Assembly: GCA_017403825.1 (NCBI GenBank)
Contig: JAFRDO010000067.1
Span: 1 to 64,000, forward strand
DNA length: 64,000 nucleotides
Source: Kiritimatiellia bacterium
Lineage (GTDB): Bacteria; Verrucomicrobiota; Kiritimatiellia; RFP12; UBA1067
Direction: 5' to 3'
How positions within the stretch are numbered: the stretch's first letter is position 1; each line of letters opens with the position of its first letter. The translations under genes and the position numbers were made by a program. Under the pieces are notes generated by a model that was given only the letters and a program-made list of their open reading frames with translations, made no database searches and was not told the origin of the DNA. Shown in pieces: positions 20,589 through 26,735 of this stretch.

Positions 20589-21482
20589 CTATACGCCCCA
20601 GAGGTCATCACCGTAGGCGGCAATCCACTCACGCGAGAGCTTCACGGCCGGCACATCAAGGGCGGCGGCGAACGACGGATGGAAGATAAGCCCCGTAACC
20701 GTGCGGTCCGCGAGGAACCGCCGCGCAAACGCGAGCTGCTGCTCCATCCGTGCGGCGGGAACGGGCGCACTCGCATCAAAGTCCCACATATACAGCCCCA
20801 GCAACAGGTCCTTTTCCGGCCCGATGAATTCGCGGCAGCGTTTTACCTGATCACCCATCGTCTCGATGTTGGCGCTTTTCCAGAACCACAGACTCGTTTC
20901 ATCGCAGAGGTCGAGGTCGCGCTTGTACTCCTTGCGGAACCCGTTCTGGTCGGAGTAGAGCACAACCGAAAGGCGCAAGCCGTGCGCATGAACCTCGTCC
21001 GACACCATCCGCAGGTCGAGTCCCTTCTGCCCGATGTCCGCAGGACAGAAATAGTCGTCAAGAAAACATCCCGTGAGATTCGGCATCGCCGGCTGAAGCA
21101 CATCGAACGCAAGCCGCATCTTGTCCTGTACCGTGCCCTTCGACGCATCAGCGATTCCGAACGATATGCGCTTGAGCGACTTGAACTGCTCGAAGTAGTC
21201 GCCCCACGGATAGGCTGGCTTATTGCCCCACCGTATCACGCAGTTGTTCGGAATGCCCATAATCCGACAGCCCTCTGCCTGATCCACCGCCGACCCCGGC
21301 CAAACCGCGCCCTTGGCGACAGATCGACTGCTCATGTCGGGATGATGCCCCCACATCCACAGCCTGTCGCGTATCGTCGCCCCATAGAAGGAACCGCCGA
21401 AGAGGGAACGGCACCCCGACGCCGCGCCTACGCCAGCCGCCGCAATTCCCTTGATGAACTCCCGCCTTGATTCGGATGTCAT
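20589..21482 (-). CDS. Tat-type lipoprotein with barrel-like domain, function unknown
   Basis: 297 residues from the ATG at 21482, whose ATGA overlaps the stop of the LamG protein gene. The N-terminus has a twin-arginine motif (SRREFIKG) and a lipobox ASGC near residue 22. The mature part contains DDYFCPADIG, HAHGLRLSVVLYSDQN and LLLGLYMWDFDASAPVP, which look like TIM-barrel strands. An acid cluster, FLDDYF, may be functional. No family recognised; it belongs to the coupled block of secreted glycan genes at 16-24 kb. Confidence 0.65.
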   Translation of the reverse strand: MTSESRREFIKGIAAAGVGAASGCRSLFGGSFYGATIRDRLWMWGHHPDMSSRSVAKGAVWPGSAVDQAEGCRIMGIPNNCVIRWGNKPAYPWGDYFEQFKSLKRISFGIADASKGTVQDKMRLAFDVLQPAMPNLTGCFLDDYFCPADIGQKGLDLRMVSDEVHAHGLRLSVVLYSDQNGFRKEYKRDLDLCDETSLWFWKSANIETMGDQVKRCREFIGPEKDLLLGLYMWDFDASAPVPAARMEQQLAFARRFLADRTVTGLIFHPSFAAALDVPAVKLSREWIAAYGDDLWGV

Positions 21483-23770
21483 TTGACTATAAGCGTCATT
21501 CCTAGCGGTTCGCTCGTAATCGTTGCGGACGCCGATGGCTCCCCGTCCCGAGCAACGCCATAGAAATCGTCGTACACGGCGATTGCCTGATAGGTGTGTA
21601 CATATCCATCGTCTGTTTTCGTTCCGCCACGCGCCCATTCTGCGGAAAGAACGCCGCCCGTTCCGCCCGCAATAGGCTGTCCGTCCATAAGCCACTTGTA
21701 TGAGTTCGCGCCCGGCGCGTATGCGATCAAGGTCGTCGTCCCGCCATGTGCAAGCTTCGCCGAATAGTCAGGCTTGATGTATGCCTTGAGAGAACCGTGG
21801 TCATGCCCCGCGCCGCCGAACGTGAACGACGGACCGTTGGAAATGACATCGCCCGTCACCGTGTCGTAAAGCCCCGTCACCGCGCCGCCGCCATATGGCA
21901 GAAACTCGTGCGCCAGCGAACCCGACTCGTAGATGCGGACGCTGTAGATGCGCGCCTTGGACATATTGGCGTACGATGTTGCGGCGGAGTTCCAGAAGCG
22001 GGCGAACAAAGAGAGCGGCAGATCCGCTTCTTTCCCGGCGAAATTGAGTCCGGATGAAGTGGCCAGATTTCCGTCGGTAAATGTATTCGTCGTGCTACCG
22101 GTCATAAACACAAGTTTGTCATTTGGAAGATCAATGATGGCGGTGTGCCTGTCGGTATCAATACCAGCCTTGTATTTAGTAACCTTCTGATCCCACGGCC
22201 CTACGACAAAATTGAAGTGCGTACCGCTGTTAAGAAACACAGTGGTCAACAACGAGGTCTCATAAGAAGATGTGCCGCCGCCATACGATCCGAAAACGCG
22301 GCCACTGCCGCTTGTATCTATCATTGCAAAATCCACCTCAAGCCGCGAATTGCCGTTCATCTTGTAGCCCGTGTTGAGTCCCGTCGTGCCATCGGATCCG
22401 AGATAGGCATCCTGCTCGCCTTTGATGGCACCACCGTAAGCAAGAGTACTTGTCGTATCGTCGGTGTAGCGGATGGCTTCAAGGAATGTGCCGGAAACTT
22501 TGTCAAGAAGCCCCGGAACACCGTTTGTCACATATGGCACATAGTCTTTCCTGATTACACCCTCTTCCCAAATCTTGCAGCCGTATATCTTGAGAGGCGC
22601 GTGACAGTCCTTGCCGCCATATGAAGAGCAGAGCTTCAAGGTTATACTGCTGCTTGACGCCAAAGAAGACGACTCGGCCGTCACTGTCTGATTCGTGAAA
22701 CCAGAAGTCACCACACCTGCGACGCAATTGTTGTTGTCAATGAAAAACGTACGGCGAACGTCCTTGTCATCGACTGGCTGAGGAAAAGCAGGACTGAAAA
22801 CATTGGAATTGACGAAGCCGCTAAAGGCATTTTCGTATCTCAAGCCATAATTGCTCGTATTGAGGTATTTGACGAAGTTCAAGTAGAACCTTGGGTAGCT
22901 GTCGAACAGATACGCATTCATGTTGACACCACCCTCAGTCGGAACGCAGTTTTCCGAAAGCGCACAGTCAATGGCGACAGCCGTTTTGGGAGTTACGATG
23001 TAGCCCGTGTCGAAGTAGAGATGGCCGCCCGTCTCGTTCGCCGCCGTGGAAACATAGCCATCATCGGGATATGTCTCGTAGTCGCCGCCCACCGTAAACG
23101 CCGCGACATTCTCGCCGACGATGAAGCTGCCATTGACAAAATCCTTGAAGCAGGCGACGCCGTCCGCTCTCATGCAGGGGACAAAGTTCCTGACGATTTC
23201 GCCGTTTTCGTATATCTTGACACCGTAGATGCGCGCTTTGGGAATGTTCGCAAAAGCAGTCGCGGCGGAGTTCCAGAAACGGGCAAACAGCGATAGAGGC
23301 AAATCTGCCTCCATCCCCGAGAAATTAAGACCGGACCAAGTCGCCAAGTTTCCGTCTGTAAATGCGTTCGTCGTGCTGCCGGTCATGAACACAAGCCTGT
23401 CGTTGGGAAGGTCGATGATGGCGGTGTGCCTGTCGGTATCGGTACCAAGCTTGTATTTCTGCACCTTGCTGTTCCATGGACCCACGACAAAATTGAAATG
23501 CGTGTCGCTGAGGAACAGCGTTGTCAACAACGACATTTCATAGGAAGAAGTGCCGCCGCCGTATGATCCGAAAACGCGAAGCGCACCGCCGACTTCCACC
23601 ATCTGAAAATCCACCTCCACGCGGGACGTGCCCTTCATGCGGTAGCCGGTCGAGATGCCGCTTGCGCCGGACGATTCGATGTACGGGTCTTCGCCGTATG
23701 CGGCGACTGCCGAAAGCACAGCAAAACCCACGGCAATAATTGTCATCATCGTGCTTCTGGTGTTTTTCAT
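21479..23770 (-). CDS. Secreted multi-domain LamG-like surface protein with internal duplication
   Basis: 763 residues from the ATG at 23770, preceded by AAAGGAG; upstream TTG codons are less likely starts. A signal peptide ends near residue 25. Three jelly-roll modules follow at about 28-200, 238-400 and 454-625. The first and third are almost the same sequence (VFGSYGGGTSSYE, HFNFVVGPW, DTDRHTAIIDLPND, FMTGSTTN and ADLPLSLFARFWNSAAT occur in both). A C-terminal Ig-like segment (664-763) has YKWLMDGQPIAGGTGG. It probably binds carbohydrate at the cell surface. The promoter box GTATAAT lies about 45 bases upstream of the start. Confidence 0.8.
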   Translation of the reverse strand: MKNTRSTMMTIIAVGFAVLSAVAAYGEDPYIESSGASGISTGYRMKGTSRVEVDFQMVEVGGALRVFGSYGGGTSSYEMSLLTTLFLSDTHFNFVVGPWNSKVQKYKLGTDTDRHTAIIDLPNDRLVFMTGSTTNAFTDGNLATWSGLNFSGMEADLPLSLFARFWNSAATAFANIPKARIYGVKIYENGEIVRNFVPCMRADGVACFKDFVNGSFIVGENVAAFTVGGDYETYPDDGYVSTAANETGGHLYFDTGYIVTPKTAVAIDCALSENCVPTEGGVNMNAYLFDSYPRFYLNFVKYLNTSNYGLRYENAFSGFVNSNVFSPAFPQPVDDKDVRRTFFIDNNNCVAGVVTSGFTNQTVTAESSSLASSSSITLKLCSSYGGKDCHAPLKIYGCKIWEEGVIRKDYVPYVTNGVPGLLDKVSGTFLEAIRYTDDTTSTLAYGGAIKGEQDAYLGSDGTTGLNTGYKMNGNSRLEVDFAMIDTSGSGRVFGSYGGGTSSYETSLLTTVFLNSGTHFNFVVGPWDQKVTKYKAGIDTDRHTAIIDLPNDKLVFMTGSTTNTFTDGNLATSSGLNFAGKEADLPLSLFARFWNSAATSYANMSKARIYSVRIYESGSLAHEFLPYGGGAVTGLYDTVTGDVISNGPSFTFGGAGHDHGSLKAYIKPDYSAKLAHGGTTTLIAYAPGANSYKWLMDGQPIAGGTGGVLSAEWARGGTKTDDGYVHTYQAIAVYDDFYGVARDGEPSASATITSEPLGMTLIVK
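21896..22411 (-). repeat. Intragenic duplication, second copy
   Basis: Encodes residues about 454-625 of the LamG-like protein. The protein is closely similar to the copy at 23171-23689 and DNA blocks match, such as GATGATGGCGGTGTGCCTGT. This indicates recent duplication or gene conversion. Confidence 0.8.
23171..23689 (-). repeat. Intragenic duplication, first copy
   Basis: Encodes residues about 28-200; partner of the copy at 21896-22411. Confidence 0.8.
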
Positions 23771-23840
23771 CAACAAACTCCTTTTGCATTCTTTTACATT
23801 GCGATAACTTACATATTATACACCATCCCGACGCGCCGGA

Positions 23841-23891: not shown

Positions 23892-25253
23892 TTACTCACA
23901 GACCATTCTCCTCGCGGCAGGACCGAATGCGTACAGCGGGATGTCCTTGATCTCCGCACCATCATGCGCCGCCGCCAGCGAAGTCCTGAACGAAAATGGC
24001 GGGGAGAACAGTTCACGATAGACTTTGAGGCTTTTCGCCTGAGTGTTGATCCCGGCCTTGACCTCGACCGGAAACACGCCCCTTTCGCCCTGTATGACAA
24101 ACTCAACCTCCGCGCTCCCTGCGTCATTCATCCAATAACAAGGCTCAAATCCATTTACCGTCAGTTCCTGCAAGACGTACTGCTCCGCCAACGTCCCCTT
24201 GAAATTAGTGAATGCGGCATTACCCTCCAAGACAACCGATGGAGGCAGGTCGCTCATCGCGCCAAGAAGCCCCACGTCATGCGCATACAGTCGGAAGGCG
24301 GAGAAGTCGCGATATGACTTGAGCGGCAACCGCGGCGTCGACGCACGATATACCCGCCGGATCATGCCCGCATCGTCCAGCCACTGGAGTGCCGCTTCGT
24401 ACTCGCGAGCCCTAGCACCAGTCTTCAACGCCGCGTAAACGAACTTCTTGTTCTCCTTCGCCAACTGCGCTGGAATAGAATTCCACAGCAACCTGATTTT
24501 CGGAAGCATCGCAATGGGGGCGTGCTTGACAAAATCGCTGTCGTATGCGGACAGAATCTCGGCCTGCACGTCCCTGACGGCGTGAAGGCTGTTCGTGTCA
24601 ACGTATGTGTTTACAGCCTCCGGCATGCCGCCGACCAGAAGATAGCGCTTGAGAATGTCGGCCAGTTCCGCCGCGTATGGCACGGAGGCGGACGGATCCC
24701 CGCCTTCAAGAATGTCGGCAAGTCTGCTCTTTCCGATAGCCCTGACAAATTCGGGGAAATCCATCGGACATACCTCCAGAAGATTAACTTTCCCCACCGG
24801 GAAAGATCCACGAGGCTCGTTGGGGTTGTCGGCGTTCGCCTCCGAACGGCGTTCGGCAGAACGCCCAACTGCAAGGCCGAGAAGTGAACCTGCAGCGACC
24901 ACCGCCAGTTCCGGCATATCCTCATTGAAAAACTTGAGTGAGGTCAAGGCGTTAGACGATTCTTGGATTTCATCGAGAAGAAGCAATGACTTGCCGGGAA
25001 CGATTTCAACATCAAGGGCAATGCCGATTCTCTCTAGCACCGACTTCGGAGTGATGTCTCCGCTCTCCAGCTGATTACGCAGCGTCTTCATTTTCATCAA
25101 ATTGACGTAAACGGCGTTCTCTCCATACACCGTCCGTGCAAATTCGTTCAGAAGCCAAGTCTTCCCGACCTGTCTTGCGCCCATCAGCACAAGAGGCTTG
25201 CGCACCTTGCGATGGTTCCATTCCGTCATCTTCAACAATATGTTTCTTTTCAT
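23892..25253 (-). CDS. AAA+ ATPase with C-terminal DUF4143 domain
   Basis: 453 residues. The N-terminal AAA_14 domain has Walker A GARQVGKTW (about 25-33), Walker B SLLLLDEIQES and the sensor-like VVAAGSLLGLAVG. The C-terminal DUF4143 domain has FKGTLAEQYVLQEL, CYWMNDAGSAEVEFVIQ and VFPVEVKAG, the last resembling the PD-(D/E)xK nuclease-like core noted in this family. Such ATPases are abundant, patchily distributed and often multicopy in anaerobes; their role is not settled. The promoter box TATAAT is 19 bases before the ATG, and two palindromic repeats lie over the upstream promoter region. It interrupts the glycan island. Confidence 0.9.
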   Translation of the reverse strand: MKRNILLKMTEWNHRKVRKPLVLMGARQVGKTWLLNEFARTVYGENAVYVNLMKMKTLRNQLESGDITPKSVLERIGIALDVEIVPGKSLLLLDEIQESSNALTSLKFFNEDMPELAVVAAGSLLGLAVGRSAERRSEANADNPNEPRGSFPVGKVNLLEVCPMDFPEFVRAIGKSRLADILEGGDPSASVPYAAELADILKRYLLVGGMPEAVNTYVDTNSLHAVRDVQAEILSAYDSDFVKHAPIAMLPKIRLLWNSIPAQLAKENKKFVYAALKTGARAREYEAALQWLDDAGMIRRVYRASTPRLPLKSYRDFSAFRLYAHDVGLLGAMSDLPPSVVLEGNAAFTNFKGTLAEQYVLQELTVNGFEPCYWMNDAGSAEVEFVIQGERGVFPVEVKAGINTQAKSLKVYRELFSPPFSFRTSLAAAHDGAEIKDIPLYAFGPAARRMVCE

Positions 25254-25287
25254 AATTGGCCTTTTGCGTGTAATTATACCATCACAA

Positions 25288-25350
25288 CATCACAAAAGTC
25301 AATCGACTTCCGTGATTCATCATCACAAAAGTCAATCGACTTTCGTGATT
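25288..25350. repeat. Two 30-bp palindromes, 33-bp period, over the ATPase promoter
   Basis: Copies at 25288-25317 and 25321-25350 differ at one base. Each is an imperfect palindrome: ATCACAAAAGTC, then AATC, then GACTTTCGTGAT. The nearest copy begins 10 bp upstream of the TATAAT box (25278-25273, minus strand) of the DUF4143 ATPase gene, so the pair covers the -20 to -80 region. An autoregulatory operator or a mobile palindromic repeat associated with this ATPase family are the two readings. Confidence 0.75.
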
Positions 25351-25436
25351 CCGGCCCTTATACGCCCCAACGGTCGTCGGCGCAGGAGGCGATTCATTCG
25401 CGTGCCGACCAGGCACAGAATGCTCGAATACGCCCG

Positions 25437-26735
25437 CTACACCAGCATATACGGCTGCGAGAACAGCTCCTCGCCGCTGCCGTCCACCGCATACGCCTTG
25501 ACGCGCGCAAACATGTGCACGTCCTTGCGCGGACCGCCGGCGAGCGGCGGCTTTTCCATCGACCATTTGATGGAAGTGCCGTTTTCGACCTCCCGGACCG
25601 GACCCAGCGCGGTGATAACCTGAAGGCGCGCGGGCTTGTCCGTCTCAGCCTCGACCGTCGTGCCGCTGAAGGCGATTCGCTTGAACTTCAACTCGTTGAG
25701 ACCTCGCTTCGCGCCGTAGAAATTCCCCTCGCGATAAGCTTTCAGACAGGCCTGCACCGTCCGTTCCGGCGTAAGAAGAACGTTCACGCCGAAGCTGTTG
25801 TCCTTCCGGTTGATCGAATGGTCCGGCACGAAGAAGCCGAAGCACTGCCGTCCAGTGGAAAGCACCCAGTCCCAGTAGCTCTCGCTGTTGCTCCCGCCGC
25901 CTTCGATTACCTCGATTCCAAGGACGCGCGGATCGTAATCGAGTATCTCCAGCATGAAGTTGCGGTCATAAGCCGACCACTTGGGATGATTGATCGTAAC
26001 ACCGCCGCCGTCAGGGAAGATGAGCCCGTCGATCATGCGGTCGATGGCCGTCTTCCAGTGTTCGCCGGAGCCGATGGAATAGCCGCCGCGCTGGAAAGTC
26101 TGGAATCGGCGCTTTGACCACTGGTCGAACGTGCCGGAGGCGAACGCGGAGCCAGGCGCGTTCATGTGGAGGCCGCGCGCAGTGTGCCCGTCGTCTTTCT
26201 TGAATCCGTGATGCTCGGCGTTCGGCGCCTCCAGGACACCTTCAGGCAAAGGCTTGAACAGCGGCGCTCCCTCCTTGAACGGATACTCAGCCTGAAGTTC
26301 GGCAGGGAGCTCCTTGATCCATTTCCCGACGATTGCGTTCCAATCGAACGGCCCTTCCACTCTCTTGCCGTTTACCACCACCGGAAAGTCGTGATGCACC
26401 CAGTAGTAGTTCTCGGTCATCTTCGAGAGCGGCCACCACGGGGCGGACGGATAGTAGTTGGAAAGCGTGAGGAACTCGATGCGCTTCAGGATGATGTCAA
26501 GTTCCTTCTGCGTCCTGCAGTGCATGTGCGTGGTGCCCCTGATCTGAAGCGCCGTGGCCCAGTCCACATCCTTGTACGGATGCCGATTGCGCGGCGGAGC
26601 GCTCGTGCCGCTTTCGCCGGAAGGAACCGACTGGGCGCCTTGCCCCTTGATCTCGTTCGCGGTCTGGGCATCCGAGGATGCACATCCGCCCATTGCCGCC
26701 GTCGCGGCCGCTATCATGAATTCTCGTCTGTTCAT
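25437..26735 (-). CDS. Tat-type lipoprotein with PHP-like metallohydrolase domain
   Basis: 432 residues. The N-terminus MNRREFMIAAATAAMGGC is a twin-arginine lipoprotein signal (Cys18), followed by a low-complexity linker and the segment RGTTHMHCRTQKELD. The HxH there, plus later HHGFKKDDGHTARGLHM, TINHPKWSAYD and IEVIEGGGSNSESYWD, fits a PHP-type metal-dependent hydrolase or phosphoesterase barrel. The C-terminal 100 residues resemble a beta-sandwich. Role in glycan or phospho-sugar processing is inferred from location. GGAGGGATAAAAA precedes the start. Confidence 0.75.
   Translation of the reverse strand: MNRREFMIAAATAAMGGCASSDAQTANEIKGQGAQSVPSGESGTSAPPRNRHPYKDVDWATALQIRGTTHMHCRTQKELDIILKRIEFLTLSNYYPSAPWWPLSKMTENYYWVHHDFPVVVNGKRVEGPFDWNAIVGKWIKELPAELQAEYPFKEGAPLFKPLPEGVLEAPNAEHHGFKKDDGHTARGLHMNAPGSAFASGTFDQWSKRRFQTFQRGGYSIGSGEHWKTAIDRMIDGLIFPDGGGVTINHPKWSAYDRNFMLEILDYDPRVLGIEVIEGGGSNSESYWDWVLSTGRQCFGFFVPDHSINRKDNSFGVNVLLTPERTVQACLKAYREGNFYGAKRGLNELKFKRIAFSGTTVEAETDKPARLQVITALGPVREVENGTSIKWSMEKPPLAGGPRKDVHMFARVKAYAVDGSGEELFSQPYMLV

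Follow-up and report, generated by a model that had tools for sequence, protein, structure and literature searches.

Repeats positioned at the promoters of DUF4143 ATPase genes as a family-wide class of candidate autoregulatory operators

A conserved, positioned repeat element is inherited together with DUF4143 ATPase genes. In the window, the whole stretch of 64,000 nucleotides of Kiritimatiellia DNA analysed here, this element is a pair of palindromes on the promoter of one such gene, and the pair is probably a gene-specific autoregulatory operator belonging to a family-wide class of promoter iterons. As a class, these candidate operators on DUF4143 promoters are widespread and previously undescribed; the underlying kind, autoregulatory iterons, is known, and so is the DUF4143 family itself (PDC-S01). 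The open papers searched gave one mention of DUF4143, none of such repeats, and no description of an operator or regulatory element for PDC-S01. This candidate virus-defence family is reported to rank fourth in frequency among prokaryotic defence gene families; most candidates of this kind are without experimental validation, which is described as pending for most PDCs (PMC12988326). A clade-specific operator would be the first concrete handle on the DNA bound by DUF4143 ATPases and on their control, and the class would predict one DNA target for each DUF4143 protein. The iterons also allow degraded DUF4143 copies and phage-borne sites to be found, and the latter offer a way to ask whether phages interact with the family.

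Two adjoining 33-bp units with 94% mutual identity lie upstream of the gene in the window (Table 1). Each contains a palindrome, and the two palindromes differ at a single base. The paired near-palindromes reported in the earlier note, 33 bp apart and just upstream of TATAAT, were confirmed, as palindromes of 28 bp. Each consists of two related half-sites with a AAAAATGTG-type core, placed face to face. The proximal palindrome spans the spot expected for the -35 box; on the minus strand the TATAAT hexamer begins 10 bp downstream of it, and the distance to the ATG (25253) is about 35 bp. The iteron class is defined by at least two units, spaced 32-34 bp, immediately upstream of the -10 of a DUF4143 gene, and the window belongs to it. 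None of 300 dinucleotide-preserving shuffles of the promoter matched its direct or its inverted repeat (p=0.003 for each, the floor). Within a plus-strand open reading frame (25212-26117), the repeats encode SQKSIDFRDS-SSQKSIDFRDS.

Table 1. Positions of the iterons, promoter elements, gene and predicted protein segments in the window
Feature	Position	Strand	Details or basis
Iteron 2, distal 28-bp palindrome	25322-25349		In unit 25318-25350; arm ...GACTTTCGTGAT, 11/12 arm pairs
Iteron 1, proximal 28-bp palindrome	25289-25316		In unit 25285-25317; ATCACAAAAGTC AATC GACTTCCGTGAT, 10/12 arm pairs
Extended -10 TGGTATAAT of DUF4143 gene	25273-25281	minus	Sequence
AAAAGG, probable ribosome-binding site	25260-25265	minus	Sequence
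AAA_14/DUF4143 ATPase gene, 453 aa, PDC-S01 family	23892-25253	minus	ORF, Pfam, PADLOC, conservation
Predicted winged-helix segment, candidate iteron reader	24276-24518 (residues 246-326)	minus	AlphaFold2 model, Mantel tests
Predicted PD-(D/E)XK nuclease-like segment	23898-24209 (residues 349-452)	minus	AlphaFold2 model, conserved residues

Palindromes such as those of the window clade could form hairpins, and the repeats might accordingly be read as RNA hairpins (an attenuator or a processing site) or as a CRISPR-like array, both of which are very improbable. The repeats lie upstream of the -10 and are therefore absent from the transcript of this DUF4143 promoter, a position on which the hairpin was rejected, and many family members have direct repeats instead of palindromes. 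A CRISPR array, defined by unique spacers and cas genes, was rejected as well, since the window has two copies of adjoining units with no spacer.

The palindrome itself is rare. It has no other copy with up to two mismatches in the 3.93-Mb genome and none at two mismatches in 57 relatives; with up to three mismatches, it occurs at only four places in 4 of the 288 genomes of the class, three of them (the window, L214 and L217) beside strong DUF4143 matches and one (L215) beside a weak match. Together with one viral contig at the same tolerance, these counts rule out the exact palindrome as a widespread motif. The viral match lies at a gene end, without DUF4143, and is probably unrelated. A perfect 28-bp palindrome on a phage contig (L033:6326-6353, ATCACAAAAGTCTTAAGACTTTTGTGAT), with arms matching those of the window palindrome, lies across the end of a helicase-like gene and may be a terminator or may be due to chance. 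The expectation of one sequence shared across phyla thus held only in part: the exact 30-mer is found only with near relatives (L074-L077, 70-84% protein identity), what is broadly conserved is the 33-bp iteron array around AAAAATGTG, and different repeats are found in other DUF4143 clades.

The breadth of this array is seen among relatives of the window protein, for which a single scan gave 80 loci, 79 with usable upstream sequence, from about nine phyla. By the names in their records, in which MAG labels are fallible, they cover Kiritimatiellae, Akkermansia, Victivallales, Chlamydiae, Treponema, Lachnospiraceae, Fibrobacter, Bacteroidales, Legionella and other Gammaproteobacteria, and Acidobacteria. 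Direct repeats are significant in 75 of the 79 promoters, and the best period is 32-34 bp in 74/79, compared with 14/203 neighbouring genes. Mean autocorrelation peaks at 33 and 66 in DUF4143 promoters, with no such peak in the promoters of neighbouring genes, and after clustering at 60% protein identity the pattern is kept in 26 of 28 representatives, against the same 14 of 203 controls. For the core half-site AAAAATGTG, the 79 regions yield 223 occurrences and the 203 controls 117; its copies are spaced 31-33 apart and frequently preceded, at 15-17 bp, by an inverted partner. For example, the complete record of cultured Collinsella aerofaciens, whose DUF4143 protein is 45% identical to that of the window, has three units starting CACATTTTCCGATGGAAA, nearly the same as in a Kiritimatiellae locus (L078). 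Repeats of 32-33 bp are also present in the complete records of other cultured bacteria, namely Acinetobacter towneri (33.6% protein identity to the window), Segatella copri, Glaesserella parasuis and Fusobacterium animalis; no clear repeat was seen at a Bacteroides DUF4143 promoter (L231). The proposal that the repeat accompanies DUF4143 ATPase genes across phyla as a dedicated element is borne out by these 75 promoters and by isolates.

Could the arrangement be due to chance or to AT-rich, low-complexity promoters? The half-sites are A-rich, and in neighbouring-gene controls the background of short repeats is raised (26/150 at p<0.05), but the sharp 32-34-bp period is missing from the neighbours and the reversed-motif and shifted-spacing controls are nearly empty. 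These controls contradict a chance origin, which is hardly credible.

Other DUF4143 genes of the same 3.9-Mb genome reveal a diversity of repeat types. The PF13635 profile has 39 matches there, 38 above the cut-off; two of these genes (C44:66604-67866 and C94:1355-2485) are each interrupted by one in-frame TAG. Repeats are significant against shuffles in 25 of 37 promoters at p<0.05 and in 20 of 37 at p<0.01, and in most DUF4143 promoters they end at an extended -10, for which TGnTATAAT is common to most by computational calls. The RKPLILMGARQVGK and ALLIDGARRVGK groups have a period of 33 bp, and KWCGKT and TGARQAGKT genes one of 23 bp; the FLSGPRQ group has inverted units with a 32-bp period, and members of the TLTGPRQSGKT group have a single large inverted repeat. 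In the KVITGIRRCGKS group, two genes have a 40-bp period and most other members show no clear repeats, so that such an operator is not present in every family member. A close analogue of the window, L007, has two 28-bp palindromes (ATCAC...GTGAT) with a 33-bp period and different inner arms. Among the 18 genes with significant direct repeats, 16 have a nearest protein neighbour with the same period (permutation p=0.001). Eight further genomes with other DUF4143 clades gave significant repeats in 21 of 30 promoters, with periods of 22-23, 32-33 or 50-52 bp or a single palindrome, and each repeat type goes with its DUF4143 clade across phyla.

The association also holds in the reverse direction, starting from the motif. 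A blind search of the 288 genomes with AAAATGTG-N23-26-AAAATGTG gave 53 matches, compared with 0 for the reversed motif. After four simple-repeat runs were left out, the matches merged into 34 places, and at 23 of these DUF4143 sequence lies immediately downstream: 19 intact reading frames and four remnants (L192, L202, L204, L207). The remaining 11 comprise three solitary arrays (L191, L208, L226), one array (L194) whose neighbouring DUF4143 gene belongs to a different clade, and seven with none or at a contig end. In 150 genomes of the Fusicatenibacter family there were 43 matches against 6 for the control; 11 of 28 examined places start a DUF4143 gene, one of them truncated (L329), and all 10 arrays with at least three half-sites are at DUF4143 genes or remnants. 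At L328, L330 and L332 only the last codons of the gene are left, ending (I/L)PLYLA.KT.ELL. As the repeat travels across phyla and blind matches are enriched at DUF4143 genes, the random placement and the strain-specificity named in the earlier note as refutations both fail.

Repeats and gene appear to be passed on as one piece. The window is 74-78% similar in DNA to L074, L075 and L076 from the repeat edge at 25350 to 23904-23915, just before the stop codon, and the flanks of these loci are without similarity, which makes the repeats and the gene a single heritable unit. Such a unit may suggest that the iterons serve chiefly as cis ends or as target sites for a mobile element of one gene, composed of ATPase and nuclease, and less as an operator. 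The homology block consists of exactly the repeats and the gene, one genome holds 38 diverse DUF4143 copies, and internally deleted copies (L192, L204, L207, L328, L330, L332) retain the iterons of the promoter together with the C-terminal end or a stub, with most of the coding region lost. Gene-deleted copies with repeats are common and resemble deletion derivatives of a mobile element. From sequence comparison, blocks bounded by repeat and stop codon and internally deleted copies are compatible with mobility without proving it. On the other hand, iteron-like copies outside the promoter, including the 3' end of the gene, occur at only 1 of 73 loci, neither terminal repeats nor terminal inverted repeats of the gene were found, and a synteny search with the upstream neighbour in 58 genomes of the genus gave no clean empty site or junction, so that the defining marks of a transposable element, repeats at each terminus and a junction at the empty site, are lacking in this set. 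Paralogues of the upstream neighbour elsewhere have no adjoining DUF4143 gene. The repeats are also phased to the -10, as is expected of an operator. We regard the mobile element as unlikely, and the 'mobile module' of the earlier note was not borne out.

The gene encodes a member of a known family. Profile matches to PF13173 (117.2 bits, curated cut-off 28.1) and PF13635 (70 bits, cut-off 27) place it in AAA_14/DUF4143, and the PADLOC profile of the candidate defence family PDC-S01 (AAA_14 + DUF4143) matches it over its full length (E 8e-152, residues 1-444). Walker A (GARQVGKT, 25-32), Walker B (DE, 94-95) and ExK (397-399) are all intact, and E357, E382, E397 and K399 are invariant among 53 homologues. 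Its nearest relatives are from Kiritimatiellae/Verrucomicrobia MAGs, several of rumen origin. An AlphaFold2 model built from 53 sequences (mean pLDDT 89.2) predicts AAA+, a helical linker, a winged-helix-like segment (helices 247-265 and 282-294, strands 298-304 and 315-324) and a nuclease-like C-terminus. A sequence search of solved structures (PDB) gave no convincing relative; the best Foldseek matches are PDB 2QEN (P. abyssi ATPase PAB2304) and ORC/Cdc6 subunits, with low TM-scores (<=0.41 by query). The resemblance of the model to ORC/Cdc6-type AAA+ proteins was counted for the operator. Directly downstream of the gene, the window encodes a 765-aa protein with internally repeated segments (21479-23776, minus strand), which has no Pfam match.

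Where the repeats sit relative to the promoter bears on what they may do. The gap from the last half-site to the -10 hexamer clusters at about -2 to 1, 9-12, 31-34 and 42-45 bp, that is, at two positions one helical turn apart which recur upstream at a distance of one unit. Promoters of one class have a half-site that overlaps the extended -10; in those of the other class, to which the window belongs, the half-site lies over the -35 region. Sites at such positions suit repression, not classical activation. We infer that the ATPase is the binder and the repressor, and that its release is the signal for action. It would probably bind its own iterons via the winged helix, with at least two protomers next to each other at a distance of about three helical turns. 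Since the iterons lie over the -35 region and adjoin or overlap the extended -10, their occupation should exclude RNA polymerase and hold expression at a low level, and relief could come from the ATP state or from foreign DNA titrating the ATPase away. In Thermus thermophilus, the DUF4143 gene TT_P0211 was up 6.6-fold with plasmid DNA and Argonaute (PMC4406477), so that at least one family member is inducible. A DUF4143 gene on pTT27 of T. thermophilus HB27 (L234, 209853-211073), possibly TT_P0211 itself, has the promoter palindrome TGCCATCTC-CCTGA-GAGATGGCA.

Which part of the protein could read the iterons was approached by Mantel tests over 76 loci. Iteron dissimilarity correlates with divergence of the winged helix (rho 0.41), the AAA domain (0.33) and the nuclease (0.28); the partial correlation is 0.32 (p=0.001) for the winged helix controlling for the AAA domain, and 0.21 for the reverse. 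As all domains correlate with the repeats, common ancestry explains part of the relationship, and the covariation favours, without proving, the winged helix as the reader. Alternatively, the repeats could be read not by the ATPase but by a host-encoded regulator, such as a global repressor of foreign genes, and external control of this kind could fit promoters that have an extended -10 and no clear -35. However, a single genome contains several repeat types, which are specific to clades and in line with protein similarity, and each goes with its clade across phyla, so that one host factor would be insufficient; a host regulator is quite unlikely.

Sites with the same core also occur in viral DNA. 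With the stricter pattern GAAAAATGTG-N22-24-GAAAAATGTG, corresponding to a 32-34-bp spacing, IMG/VR gave 48 viral stretches (L259-L306), against 1 at a spacing of 37-39 and 3 with the motif reversed; examples are L262:1778-1852, L279:9417-9492 and L266. In about ten of the 48 the array lies inside genes, and about 18 distinct non-coding types lie ahead of various phage genes with no DUF4143 gene nearby; in L262, for instance, three copies precede a terminase-like small gene. A DUF4143 gene is absent from 28 of 30 viral records searched whole, many of which are fragments; no convincing C-terminal DUF4143 stub was found next to the phage arrays, and some viral contigs may include host DNA. The phage arrays carry additional A-tracts of their own, and beyond the half-sites they mostly resemble bacterial iterons no more than shuffled inner sequence does, with exceptions including L279, L288 and L275. 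Since so few resemble them further, phages may have a separate system that uses a similar site. DUF4143 ATPases might act as operator-titration sensors, sitting on their own iterons until a phage with the same iterons pulls the protein away, which would induce the gene or load the nuclease onto phage DNA; or phages might carry the sites as decoys. Either role is a speculation that we consider doubtful.

Among known systems, the candidate operator is most readily set beside three. Iteron-autoregulated plasmid Rep initiators likewise have direct repeats of fixed period at the promoter of a gene for a winged-helix DNA-binding protein, and by analogy DUF4143 iterons would share their likely autorepression; the DUF4143 protein, however, has no Rep domain (only AAA and DUF4143 were found) and thus falls outside this group, and its genes are chromosomal and single. 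Orc1/Cdc6-related AAA+ initiators such as PAB2304 have AAA+ followed by a winged helix, as in the DUF4143 model, whereas the DUF4143 protein has an extra nuclease-like C-terminus. Autoregulated toxin-antitoxin operons have a palindromic operator overlapping the core promoter, a layout that the candidate operator of the window would share; the DUF4143 gene, in contrast to them, is a single gene, with no toxin-antitoxin partner seen in the window.
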